Origin: an uncultured Verrucomicrobiota bacterium
GTDB lineage: Bacteria > Verrucomicrobiota > Verrucomicrobiia > Limisphaerales > JAJXZI01
Assembly (NCBI GenBank): GCA_903847485.1
Contig: CAINDV010000926.1
Location: forward strand, 1-33,296
Length of the DNA: 33,296 nt
Direction of reading: 5' to 3'
Under the pieces are notes generated by a model. It did not search any database and had not been told where the DNA came from. It worked only from the letters and a program-made list of their open reading frames with translations. Made by a program: the position numbers and the translations under genes. Numbering within the stretch: position 1 is the first letter of the stretch; every line of letters begins with the position of its first letter. This document shows, in pieces, positions 1-8,224 of this stretch.

Positions 1-60
1 GATCGGCTGCGATTGCGGGGTGATGCGGCGGTTGAATTGACCAGCGTAGTTGATGGCCAT
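1..60 (-). CDS. rsr: N-terminus of a probable TROVE-domain / Ro60 ortholog (Rsr), truncated by the window edge
   Basis: Minus strand ATG at 60-58 reads MAINYAGQFNRRITPQSQPI, resembling the start of bacterial TROVE proteins (N..N.R.TPQSQPI). Strong RBS AAAGGAGG 5-12 nt upstream. Only 20 codons are visible; the adjacent Y RNA-like locus supports the call. Confidence 0.7.
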   Translation of the reverse strand, partial: MAINYAGQFNRRITPQSQPI

Positions 61-123
61 GGTGGCCTCCTTTCAGGTGATGCGTGCCGCCAACTCGCGG
101 CACGGTTTGTTTCTGAAACTGTG

Positions 124-171: not shown

Positions 172-307
172 CCGATGGGCAAGGGACTGCCGTGGAATTA
201 GTACTCCTTGCGGAGGTTGCTCTACCACTGAGCTACGCCGGCCTTTGGAGCCGGCGAACGGACTTGAACCGTCGACAAACGATAACCCACGAACTTCGGC
301 CCATCGG
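172..307 (-). ncRNA. yrlA: Bacterial Y RNA (YrlA-type) with permuted tRNA-like module
   Basis: Ends pair through a perfect 9-bp inverted repeat (172-180 ccgatgggc / 299-307 gcccatcgg). An inner helix CGUGGGUUA/UAAUUCCACG follows. Interior: T-arm GACGG-TTCAAGT-CCGTT, acceptor CGCCGGC-T-CCA (246-256), AAG linker, then acceptor GCCGGCG and D-arm GCTC-AGTGGTA-GAGC (219-242). The 5' strand GGGCCGAAGUUCGUGGGUUAUC resembles the Ro-binding strand of vertebrate Y RNAs. Lies just upstream of the Rsr-like start. Confidence 0.85.
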
Positions 308-1843: not shown

Positions 1844-3159
1844 GGCAGCCTTTCAACCTGGCACACACGGCCTTGCAAGGACACATAGCGAGGCGTGAAG
1901 TGATTCTCCACAGGAGTGTGTCCCGCGGTATGCATCAGCATGTAGTTTGCGCCTCCAAAGCAGCGCAGTGAATCCGGGTTCATCGGCTCCACGGGCACCC
2001 AGCCGAGGCCATTCAAGTACACCTCCACCCAGCCGTGCCCCAGCGCGATCTCGCCCTTGGCTTCGGGCAGCACGTTGCCGTGGGCGATCACCGCTGGCAC
2101 GCCAGCCGCCCGGCACAGGCTCGTCATGATCTGCACATGGTGGTGGCACAAGCCATGGCGGTTGGTCAGAATCGCGCTGAGCGTGTCAGGTCCATAAGGT
2201 GGTTCACGGATCATATTCACCTTCAGCCAATTCAAGATGTTCTGGACCGTCTCGGCGCTGGTGCGGCCCCGAAGCGGCCGGGCCACCGCCAGGCAATCCG
2301 GTTGCGACGGGTCAAGCCGGGGGCCATTGTGAAAAGGCCCGAGCAGGGTTTGGAGCGAACTGGGCGCAGGACCTGGCGGAACCTGGGCCAGACGCTTGGG
2401 CCCAATGCAGATGGGTTGCAGCGTCACCGTCCCGATGATTCGGAATGGCTTGTCAGGCCGGGGCGTCACCTCGAGCAGAGAATCCCGGCCCTCCGTGAAT
2501 ACCCGCCATGTCTTCGCATCGATGACGGTCACGGCGAAGGTCTGGCGCGAGGCTCGGAGGGCGGGCAGGAGGTAACGCAGGGGAGCGGTGGTGGACTTGT
2601 CGTCCACGACATAGGTGAGCCGGTACCTGCGCGGCGCGGTGACGCCCTCCAACTGCCGCCAGTATTCAGTGAAGTCCACATCCTGTCGCAGCGGTGGCGC
2701 CAGATGATCTGCCTGTTTGAGGGTAGCGCGAGCCAGATCCATGTCGCCCGCCACCATTGCCGAATCGAAGAGCTGCTGTAAGGGCCAGCCGCATTCACCG
2801 TGGCGCCGGAGGTTTTCCCTCGCGTGCTCGAGGGAAGGCTGCCACTTGCCCTGCCGGGCCTCCGCCCACGCGAGCGAGCGCCACGTGTATTCGTCGCCAG
2901 GACCCAGGGCGTGCGCATGGGTGAGAGCTTTCTCCATAGCCGCAAAGTCGCCCCTGGTTTTGGCAAGATTCGCTTTCTGAAGCCAGGATTGGAACGTCTC
3001 CTGGGCATCGAGCGGGCCGGCAAGGAGGGTTAGCCACAGCGCCCAAAGGCAGCCTCTGGCAGTCAAATGAATAATCGCAAGACGGCGAGACTTGCGCCGC
3101 ACACGGGTTCTTCTTTCTGTCGTTTGCGCCAGCGATATTGCGTTCATAATCCTGTTCAT
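1840..3159 (-). CDS. TPR-like plus transglutaminase-like domain protein
   Basis: Transglutaminase core pattern NRHGLCHHHVQIMTSLCRAAGVPAVIAHGN...GHGWVEVYLNGLGWVPVEPMNP; upstream helical repeat region. ATG overlaps the downstream ORF. Confidence 0.8.
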   Translation of the reverse strand: MNRIMNAISLAQTTERRTRVRRKSRRLAIIHLTARGCLWALWLTLLAGPLDAQETFQSWLQKANLAKTRGDFAAMEKALTHAHALGPGDEYTWRSLAWAEARQGKWQPSLEHARENLRRHGECGWPLQQLFDSAMVAGDMDLARATLKQADHLAPPLRQDVDFTEYWRQLEGVTAPRRYRLTYVVDDKSTTAPLRYLLPALRASRQTFAVTVIDAKTWRVFTEGRDSLLEVTPRPDKPFRIIGTVTLQPICIGPKRLAQVPPGPAPSSLQTLLGPFHNGPRLDPSQPDCLAVARPLRGRTSAETVQNILNWLKVNMIREPPYGPDTLSAILTNRHGLCHHHVQIMTSLCRAAGVPAVIAHGNVLPEAKGEIALGHGWVEVYLNGLGWVPVEPMNPDSLRCFGGANYMLMHTAGHTPVENHFTPRYVSLQGRVCQVERLP

Positions 3160-3779
3160 GGCTTTTGCGACCGATCAATTCGCGCCACCCGGATCAAATT
3201 GGCCAATTCGAAACAGCACCGAATACTGCGGCTGGAACTGCTGCTGGTGAAACAGGGAAACACGCTCGGCGCACCTCGCCTCACCAGTCCCATCACGAAA
3301 TAGGGCCGGCCCGTGTCGGTGGCACCGCCGTCGAAGACGCTGGCGATGTTCGGGTGTTCCATCATCGCCAGCGCCTGCCGCTCGGCCTCGAACCGCGCCA
3401 ACACCTCCTTGGTGTCCATGCCCAGCTTGATAATCTTGAGCGCCACGCGGCGGCGAACCGGTTCCTCCTGCTCAGCCATCCACACGACGCCGAAGCCGCC
3501 CTCGCCGATTTGCCCGAGCAACTTATAGCGCCCGATACGGTCGCCGCACTTCTCCACCAGCAGGCTGTGCGGAGCAACCGGCACAGCCTGAGCGCTCATG
3601 AAGCCGTTCGCCTTGTCATCCGCGGCCACAAGCGACTGGACTTTTTGCCGCAGTTCCGGCTCGCTCGCACAAGCCTGCATCAAGAACGACCTGCGCTCCT
3701 CCGGCGATGGTTTCTCCAACGCCTGGGCGAAGATTTCGCTGACTCGTTCCTGGTTCACACGGGCACGACGCTGTTTCAC
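3156..3779 (-). pseudogene. Second truncated N-terminal Ser/Thr protein kinase fragment
   Basis: NQERVSEIFAQALEKPSPEERRSFLMQACASEPELRQKVQSL...GDRIGRYKLLGQIGEGGFGVVWMAEQEEPVRRRVALKIIKLGMDTKEVLARFEAERQALAMMEHPNIASVFDGGATDTGRPYFVMGLVR, then unrelated sequence. GTG start overlaps the upstream stop. Confidence 0.8.
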
Positions 3780-7633: not shown

Positions 7634-8224
7634 TTAATTTGCGCCTCCTGAATCGGGATGGTCCCGGCGGCGGGTGATCTCGCGGTAGAGCCAGGCGCGG
7701 GCGTAGGCCCAGTCGCGCTTGGCCGTGCGCTCGGAAAGGTCCAGCGCCGCCGCCGTCTCTTCGAGCGTCAAGCCGGCGAAGTACCGCAGCTTCACCAGTT
7801 CGGCTTTGCGGGCGTCGTGTGCCGCCAGCGCATCCAGCGCTTCGTGAACCGCCAGCAACTCCTCGTCCGGTGCCCCGCCGGCGATCGGCAGGTGATCTGG
7901 TTCCAGGTCCGTGCGTCGGAGTCCGCCACCGTGGCGGACGGCTTGTTTCCGTCGGGCGTTATCAATCAGGATGCGCCGCATGGCCTCCGCCGCCGCCACG
8001 AAGAAATGTCGCCGTCCCTGCCACCGGAGATCTTCGTTCCCGACCAGCCGCAGATACGCTTCATGCACCAGGGCCGTTGCCTGCAAGGTCTGCCCCGGCC
8101 GCTCTTGGGCCAGGCGCCACGCCGCCAGACGGCGCAACTCCGCATAGACCAGCGGCAGTAACTCCGCCGTCGCCTGGCTCTGGCCCTGCTCTATTGCCGC
8201 GAGAATCTTTGTTACCTCAGACAT
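7634..8224 (-). CDS. ECF-type sigma-70 factor (SigSAC/PF07638-like)
   Basis: LLPLVYAELRRLAAWRLAQERPGQTLQATALVHEAYLRLV...FFVAAAEAMRRILIDNARRK...LVKLRYFAGLTLEETAAALDLSERTAKRDWAYARAWL. Confidence 0.93.
   Translation of the reverse strand: MSEVTKILAAIEQGQSQATAELLPLVYAELRRLAAWRLAQERPGQTLQATALVHEAYLRLVGNEDLRWQGRRHFFVAAAEAMRRILIDNARRKQAVRHGGGLRRTDLEPDHLPIAGGAPDEELLAVHEALDALAAHDARKAELVKLRYFAGLTLEETAAALDLSERTAKRDWAYARAWLYREITRRRDHPDSGGAN

Follow-up and report, generated by a model that had tools for sequence, protein, structure and literature searches.

A tailed, YrlA-like Y RNA with a CCA in tRNA register upstream of ro60 in Verrucomicrobiota

At one end of a 33,296-nucleotide contig from an uncultured Verrucomicrobiota bacterium (CAINDV010000926.1), the minus strand carries the parts of a tRNA in the wrong order, with a 3' half ending in CCA placed ahead of a 5' half, just upstream of a gene for Ro60. 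Is this a broken tRNA or a bacterial Y RNA with a tRNA mimic, and why does it hold a CCA where a tRNA would have one? The window analysed is the entire contig (C926 of a 9.0-Mb assembly, 75.65% complete). We are highly confident in reading the element as a tailed Y RNA of the YrlA kind, in which a Ro60-binding stem would carry a permuted tRNA-Gly-like effector module. The permutation itself has already been published; the unusual part is an N73-CCA in exact register within the permuted acceptor loop, which is new here along with the likeness to tandem tRNA-Gly genes and the variant tRNA arrays of related loci.

The RNA and its Ro60 neighbour

The features of the locus, all on the minus strand, are as follows.

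172..307, minus: whole Y RNA, 134-136 nt (full-length covariance model built with this genome left out; fold z-score)
299..307, minus: basal stem, 5' strand CCGATGGGC; two of seven modelled pairs changed on both sides
172..180, minus: basal stem, 3' strand GCCCATCGG; same pairing evidence as 299..307
282..298, minus: presumed Ro60-binding 5' strand CGAAG..GTGGGTTAT; motif near-invariant in relatives
190..200, minus: upper stem, 3' strand TAATTCCACGG; pairs with 283-292
257..273, minus: T-arm GACGG-TTCAAGT-CCGTT; sub-threshold RF02553 match and core covariance model R1
250..256, minus: 3' acceptor strand CGCCGGC; 7/7 pairs changed on both sides in relatives
246..249, minus: U73 (249) and CCA (248-246) in tRNA register, in the hairpin loop UCCAAAG; offset count in relatives
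243..245, minus: AAG spacer between the CCA and the 5' acceptor (sequence)
236..242, minus: 5' acceptor strand GCCGGCG; pairs 7/7 with the 3' acceptor
219..233, minus: D-arm GCTC-AGTGGTA-GAGC, preceded by UA after the 5' acceptor
204..215, minus: CUCC-GCAA-GGAG hairpin at the junction after the D-arm; 97.9% of cells paired in relatives of the window's own group (group W, below)
1..60, minus: ro60, first 20 codons MAINYAGQFNRRITPQSQPI, truncated by the contig end
Just upstream of the ro60 start, minus: ribosome-binding-like site AAAGGAGG

From 5' to 3' the RNA thus runs through basal stem, Ro-type strand, T-arm, 3' acceptor, U73, CCA, AAG, 5' acceptor, UA, D-arm, CUCC-GCAA-GGAG hairpin, upper stem and basal stem. 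The first-pass annotation, made from the letters alone, had proposed an RNA at 172-307 on the minus strand with a T-arm and CCA-ending 3' acceptor ahead of the 5' acceptor and D-arm, joined by AAG, with acceptor strands pairing 7/7, no anticodon arm and outer ends drawn into a long stem. The letters are as it described and folding reproduces the structure, including the CGCCGGC/GCCGGCG acceptor, the outer CCGATGGGC/GCCCATCGG pairing and the inner stem around GTGGGTTA/TAATTCCAC. An anticodon arm could not be built from the outer ends, which pair as a Y stem instead. The hairpin at 215-204 was not part of that structure, and the CCA had been noticed without its register being developed. The minimum free energy is -56.4 kcal/mol, against -41.6 (sd 3.9) for shuffled sequences (z -3.78; 0/200 shuffles as good), and when the window was scanned for permuted tRNA modules the RNA scored 19.1, whereas 20 dinucleotide-shuffled copies reached 16.3 at most.

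The ro60 start lies ~110 nt downstream of the RNA, on the same strand. The 20 residues encoded at 60-1 are identical at 17 positions to the N-terminus of a complete Ro60 on another contig of the same assembly, C67, and we therefore place the window RNA upstream of a Ro60 gene. The C67 protein matches human Ro60 (E 9e-134), Xenopus Ro60 (E 5e-130) and Deinococcus Rsr, the structure matches ranging from 9e-134 to 3e-120, as well as PF05731 (149 bits). Ahead of it stand four tandem Y RNA-like units, the third corresponding to the window RNA and the fourth being an untailed Y RNA.

Conservation in relatives and class of the RNA

The relatives are Verrucomicrobiota, mostly of Verrucomicrobia subdivision 3 or Pedosphaera type, and were described by two covariance models. 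The full-length model, R2, was built without the window's genome and its score on the window is independent; that of R1, the model of the tRNA-like core, is not, because the window is in its training set. In the whole assembly, R2 gives the window RNA a score of 122.3 bits (E 7.9e-26) and its counterpart on C67 one of 123.4 bits. In 12 full-length relatives, the window genome excluded, 15 of 39 pairs have changed on both sides, 97.6% of the cells are paired and covariation reaches 0.317, as against 0.141 when shuffled; the basal, T, acceptor, D and GCAA stems are all supported. Relatives conserve the pairing of 172-180 with 299-307, on which the first-pass annotation had staked its reading, and in places both partners of a pair have changed. 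Across 41 core modules every one of the seven acceptor pairs shows such two-sided change, and covariation is 0.600, compared with 0.172 in shuffles and 0.145 in the best slid control.

The Ro-type strand, GGGCCGAAG...GGTTATC, is nearly invariant in 21 relatives, and from what is known of the family the 282..298 strand would be the one that binds Ro60. A likeness of this strand to human Y RNA hY1 had been proposed, and 18 of 22 positions are identical to the hY1 letters quoted there; in a database comparison the nematode sbRNA model RF01656 matches the whole length of the window RNA at 23.8 bits (E 0.02), below its threshold of 38. Two untailed Y RNAs just upstream of Ro60 do exceed that gathering score, the fourth unit of C67 (L003:422-490, 39.3) and one at L013:1197-1266 (39.0).

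Ro60, recognised by its TROVE domain, is present in 30 of 196 genomes of the order, and arrays of tailed Y RNAs lie upstream of many of these genes. R1 also matches upstream of Ro60 in phages of Gordonia (58.2 bits), Mycobacterium (54.8) and Microbacterium (53.5) and on a plasmid of Bosea (50.7); an Anaerolineae genome has a match next to Ro60 as well (57.6), so the fold of the module is general to the family. A second type of Y RNA, with another basal strand (GTGACGAATGCCG...GTCGTCAC), occurs at L027-L033, L068, L074, L084-L086, L171-L173, L176 and L194; several cases adjoin distant TROVE-like proteins, and in several the acceptor resembles that of tRNA-Ala, with G3:U70, A73 and an NCA loop.

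Three features of a tailed Y RNA are seen in the window RNA, namely adjacency to Ro60, the permuted order of T-arm, acceptor and D-arm, and a long conserved basal stem. Together with the match to RF02553 (YrlA) these support its assignment as a tailed, YrlA-like bacterial Y RNA, as first proposed; the class itself is already known (Chen et al. 2014 and Wang et al. 2018, as cited in PMC8394870 and PMC11472068). With YrlA it shares the linkage to Ro60, the basal stem, the circularly permuted T-arm, acceptor hairpin and D-arm, the TTC T-loop and the GG of the D-loop. It differs in its 7-bp acceptor and 7-nt UCCAAAG loop, the acceptor loop of the Rfam consensus being shorter, and in its extra GCAA hairpin and specific resemblance to tRNA-Gly. 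Its presumed Ro-binding stem may share its sequence with nematode sbRNA and vertebrate Y RNA, families that lack a tRNA-like module. Circularly permuted tRNA genes are found in red algae and some archaea, and tmRNA too has a permuted two-piece form; in these, as here, the 3' half with acceptor and CCA precedes the 5' half across a short spacer, although the window RNA has neither anticodon arm nor mRNA-like part and its spacer is only 3 nt. Salmonella YrlA (6CU1) superposes on tRNA through circular permutation (PMC11472068); the D, T and acceptor arms of YrlA are tRNA-like, and the RNA tethers Ro60 to PNPase and is modified by DusA and TruB (PMC8394870).

Several points weigh against this assignment. 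The RF02553 match, on 280-216 of the minus strand, has 33.6 bits (E 1.9e-5), well below the gathering score of 69. Ro60-adjacent relatives, those of Anaerolineae and Bosea included, likewise score below it, at 31-48 bits, and we take this to mean that the model falls short of this lineage. The neighbouring ro60 is real, as had been supposed, though the contig end cuts it and only its first 20 residues lie in the window. With a completeness of 75.65% and contamination of about 5%, the two Ro60 loci of the assembly could stem from co-binned strains. Finally, a scan limited to sigma-70 promoters found no such site near the RNA.

The prediction that annotation tools would miss the locus was borne out: an Rfam scan of the window at gathering thresholds gave no match, RF00005 included, and ARAGORN reported 0 tRNA genes and no contiguous cloverleaf with an anticodon arm. 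In relatives ARAGORN calls the 5' part of the Y RNAs tRNA-Met, tRNA-Pyl or tRNA-Asn (L133:18768-18840, L135:8053-8126, L135:11021-11094), a source of wrong annotation.

The CCA and the resemblance to tRNA-Gly

Since R1 also matches the junctions of tandem tRNA genes, modules were counted by their Y-type upstream motifs. This simple grouping, with tandem-tRNA loci left out, gave 87 distinct modules, a few of which lie outside the order. The tRNA offset is occupied by CCA in 40 of the 87, other offsets of the loop in 0-2; 19 further occurrences at offset 5 belong to the CTCCA motif of the acceptor strand, outside the loop. P-values against an expectation of 1/64 ignore relatedness and are descriptive only. 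The placement is strongly non-random, yet not universal.

The three groups differ in this respect. In group G, the unit found in arrays, 23 of 26 modules have the CCA, loop positions 77-79 are variable, and two members with long loop inserts retain N73-CCA beside the acceptor. Of the 25 modules of group W, to which the window RNA belongs, 8 have it, with seven distinct acceptor strands among them; the remainder mostly have tetraloops or altered loops. In group P, which within the order neighbours a distant family of TROVE-like proteins, 9 of 36 have it, and ACA, GCA or TCA is often seen instead. Phage, Bosea and Anaerolineae modules with readable loops have no CCA; one does occur in the long loop of a low-scoring Picosynechococcus module, where tandem tRNA-like units may be involved. 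A73 co-occurs with G3:U70 in 15 of 17 modules, and this is the identity combination of tRNA-Ala. The U73, G1:C72 and C2:G71 of the window module are those of tRNA-Gly.

Of the tRNAs compared, tRNA-Gly(GCC) is closest to each half of the window module, with 23/25 and 22/24 identities. Their sum of 45/49 compares with a cross-isotype maximum of 40 among 90 real tRNAs; the tRNA-Gly(GCC) genes compared are those of other genomes, none of the window's own genome being in the set, and the likeness becomes prominent only with this wider set. Within the phylum, junctions between tandem tRNA-Gly genes are also matched by R1, and they read T-arm, acceptor, CCA, spacer, acceptor, D-arm. Given the likeness of the halves to tRNA-Gly(GCC) and the identical layout of these junctions, the module likely originated, as judged from its sequence, at the junction of two tandem tRNA-Gly genes. 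In such a pair a Ro-binding stem would have replaced the outer halves, giving a permuted Y RNA, and the CCA retained in place suggests how permuted tRNA mimics arose. Many genomes in the phylum have tRNA-Gly(GCC) genes in tandem pairs or triplets (L174-L199). A recent capture from a specific tRNA of G148, a genome of the same order, was considered and rejected, identities of the 3' half being mostly 18-24/28.

Genomic setting and possible roles

The Y RNAs and Ro60 of related genomes sit within same-strand arrays of tRNA genes (L133:8522-14668, L134:1128-2815 on G148:C67, L135, L003:2277-5467, L037, L040, L042 and others). Many of these arrays also carry rtcB, recognised by Pfam at E 6e-74 and 2e-73 (L133:12933-14126, plus strand; L135:4892-6022, plus strand) and by tblastn in further loci. 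It accompanies Y RNAs and Ro60 also at L225, L227, L042, L049, L038, L048, L050, L222 and L138, while L221 has rtcB and an array, with Ro60 not detected. The array tRNAs cover most amino acids and have an anticodon arm and an encoded CCA, but their elbow is altered: T-loops mostly start with TGC, others with TGA, TGG or AGCG, and TTC occurs in 1 of 127 predictions compared with 31 of 31 tRNAs elsewhere in G148; GG in the D-loop region is found in 36 of the 127, again against 31 of 31. Covariation between D-loop and T-loop in these tRNAs is suggestive only. At least five matches to the array T-arm pattern occur in 38 of 196 genomes, and the pattern is associated with TROVE (18 shared genomes; Fisher p 6e-8, uncorrected for phylogeny). 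Arrays with the elbow variant also lie on contigs where Ro60 was not detected (L220, G139:C41; L221, G164:C885; L223, G081:C25; L224, G038:C9), which makes the array a separate, wider element. A scan of the window for array-type tRNAs found none, so the array is context supplied by the relatives and C67, not a feature of the window. Elsewhere the window encodes an ECF sigma factor (7634-8224, minus; PF07638, E 5e-60) and a short protein-kinase-domain fragment (3156-3779, minus). An 8-bp inverted repeat with a T-rich run at 83-104 (plus), between the Y RNA and the Ro60 start, is terminator-like on the opposite strand only.

In Salmonella, rsr-yrlBA-rtcBA forms an RNA repair operon in which the linkage of Ro60 and RtcB is known (PMC7790460). 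The Verrucomicrobiota loci similarly link Ro60, Y RNAs and RtcB; unlike that operon, they hold an array of many non-canonical tRNA genes, and the window has no rtcB. RNA repair is what the setting suggests for this lineage, since related loci contain both rtcB and additional tRNA genes. If transcribed, the window RNA would bind, through its outer Y-type stem, the Ro60 encoded immediately downstream, this stem taking the place of the anticodon arm in the permuted tRNA-Gly-like module. The module would fold into a tRNA elbow and acceptor helix, bring the Ro60 ring beside a tRNA-recognising partner, such as PNPase in Deinococcus or tRNA-modifying enzymes in Salmonella, and may gate what Ro60 can bind.

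The CCA in such a molecule could be a relic, a bait or a processing site. That it is a selected bait in the uncut RNA, for a protein recognising the CCA or acceptor (RNase P, tRNA nucleotidyltransferase, EF-Tu or a nuclease), is a tentative possibility, in keeping with the pattern of CCA conservation and with a module that keeps the TTC T-loop and GG D-loop mostly missing from the neighbouring array tRNAs; yet about half of the modules have no CCA, and a 7-nt loop may present it unlike a free end. It is unlikely that the CCA is used as such, with an RNase P cut at G1 and 3' trimming to CCA-OH opening the UCCA-AAG loop, so that the Y RNA would be in two pieces, as permuted tmRNAs are, and its acceptor end free and perhaps open to aminoacylation. 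The exact register, its persistence in group G while 77-79 vary, the long-insert members that hold N73-CCA by the acceptor, the differing acceptor stems of CCA members and the Ala- and Gly-like identity elements would all suit such use, but other modules of the same arrays are capped by short loops such as GCAA, GGAA or TTCG, group P often has ACA, GCA or TCA, and the YrlA molecules described are closed. That cleavage would yield a chargeable two-piece Y RNA, tRNA-Gly-like here and tRNA-Ala-like in its sisters, we consider improbable; if true, a chargeable Y RNA would link Ro60 to aminoacyl-tRNA biology in an RtcB and tRNA-array repair locus.

Very improbable, too, is a tRNA-like leader of the ro60 mRNA that regulates ro60 instead of being a free RNA. 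The shared strand, the short distance to the ro60 start and the failure to find a terminator-like site between them on that strand would fit, but related loci have several units in tandem, the basal stem closes every unit on itself, and known members are free RNAs. A functionless broken tRNA or tandem tRNA-Gly remnant, which the resemblance of the halves to tRNA-Gly(GCC) might suggest, has next to no chance of being correct, as the flanks form a Y-type stem and not tRNA halves, the RNA is linked to Ro60, and the covariation of acceptor, T and basal stems in ~20 relatives and the R2 match contradict a pseudogene.

In the literature searched, Chen 2014 and Wang 2018 not being covered, no account came to light of permuted Y RNAs with a CCA, of tRNA arrays of the elbow-variant type, or of a larger arrangement of rtcB, Ro60, Y RNAs and tRNA arrays. 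Taken as a tailed Y RNA of the YrlA kind, the window RNA extends Ro60-linked tRNA mimics to a lineage in which they escape Rfam and tRNA finders, and it offers a concrete origin for the circular permutation that can be tested, namely a tandem tRNA-Gly junction with the CCA still in register. The rtcB, Ro60, Y RNA and extra elbow-variant tRNA genes look like a larger RNA-repair arrangement, and the CCA raises the question whether a Y RNA may be cut and charged like a tRNA.
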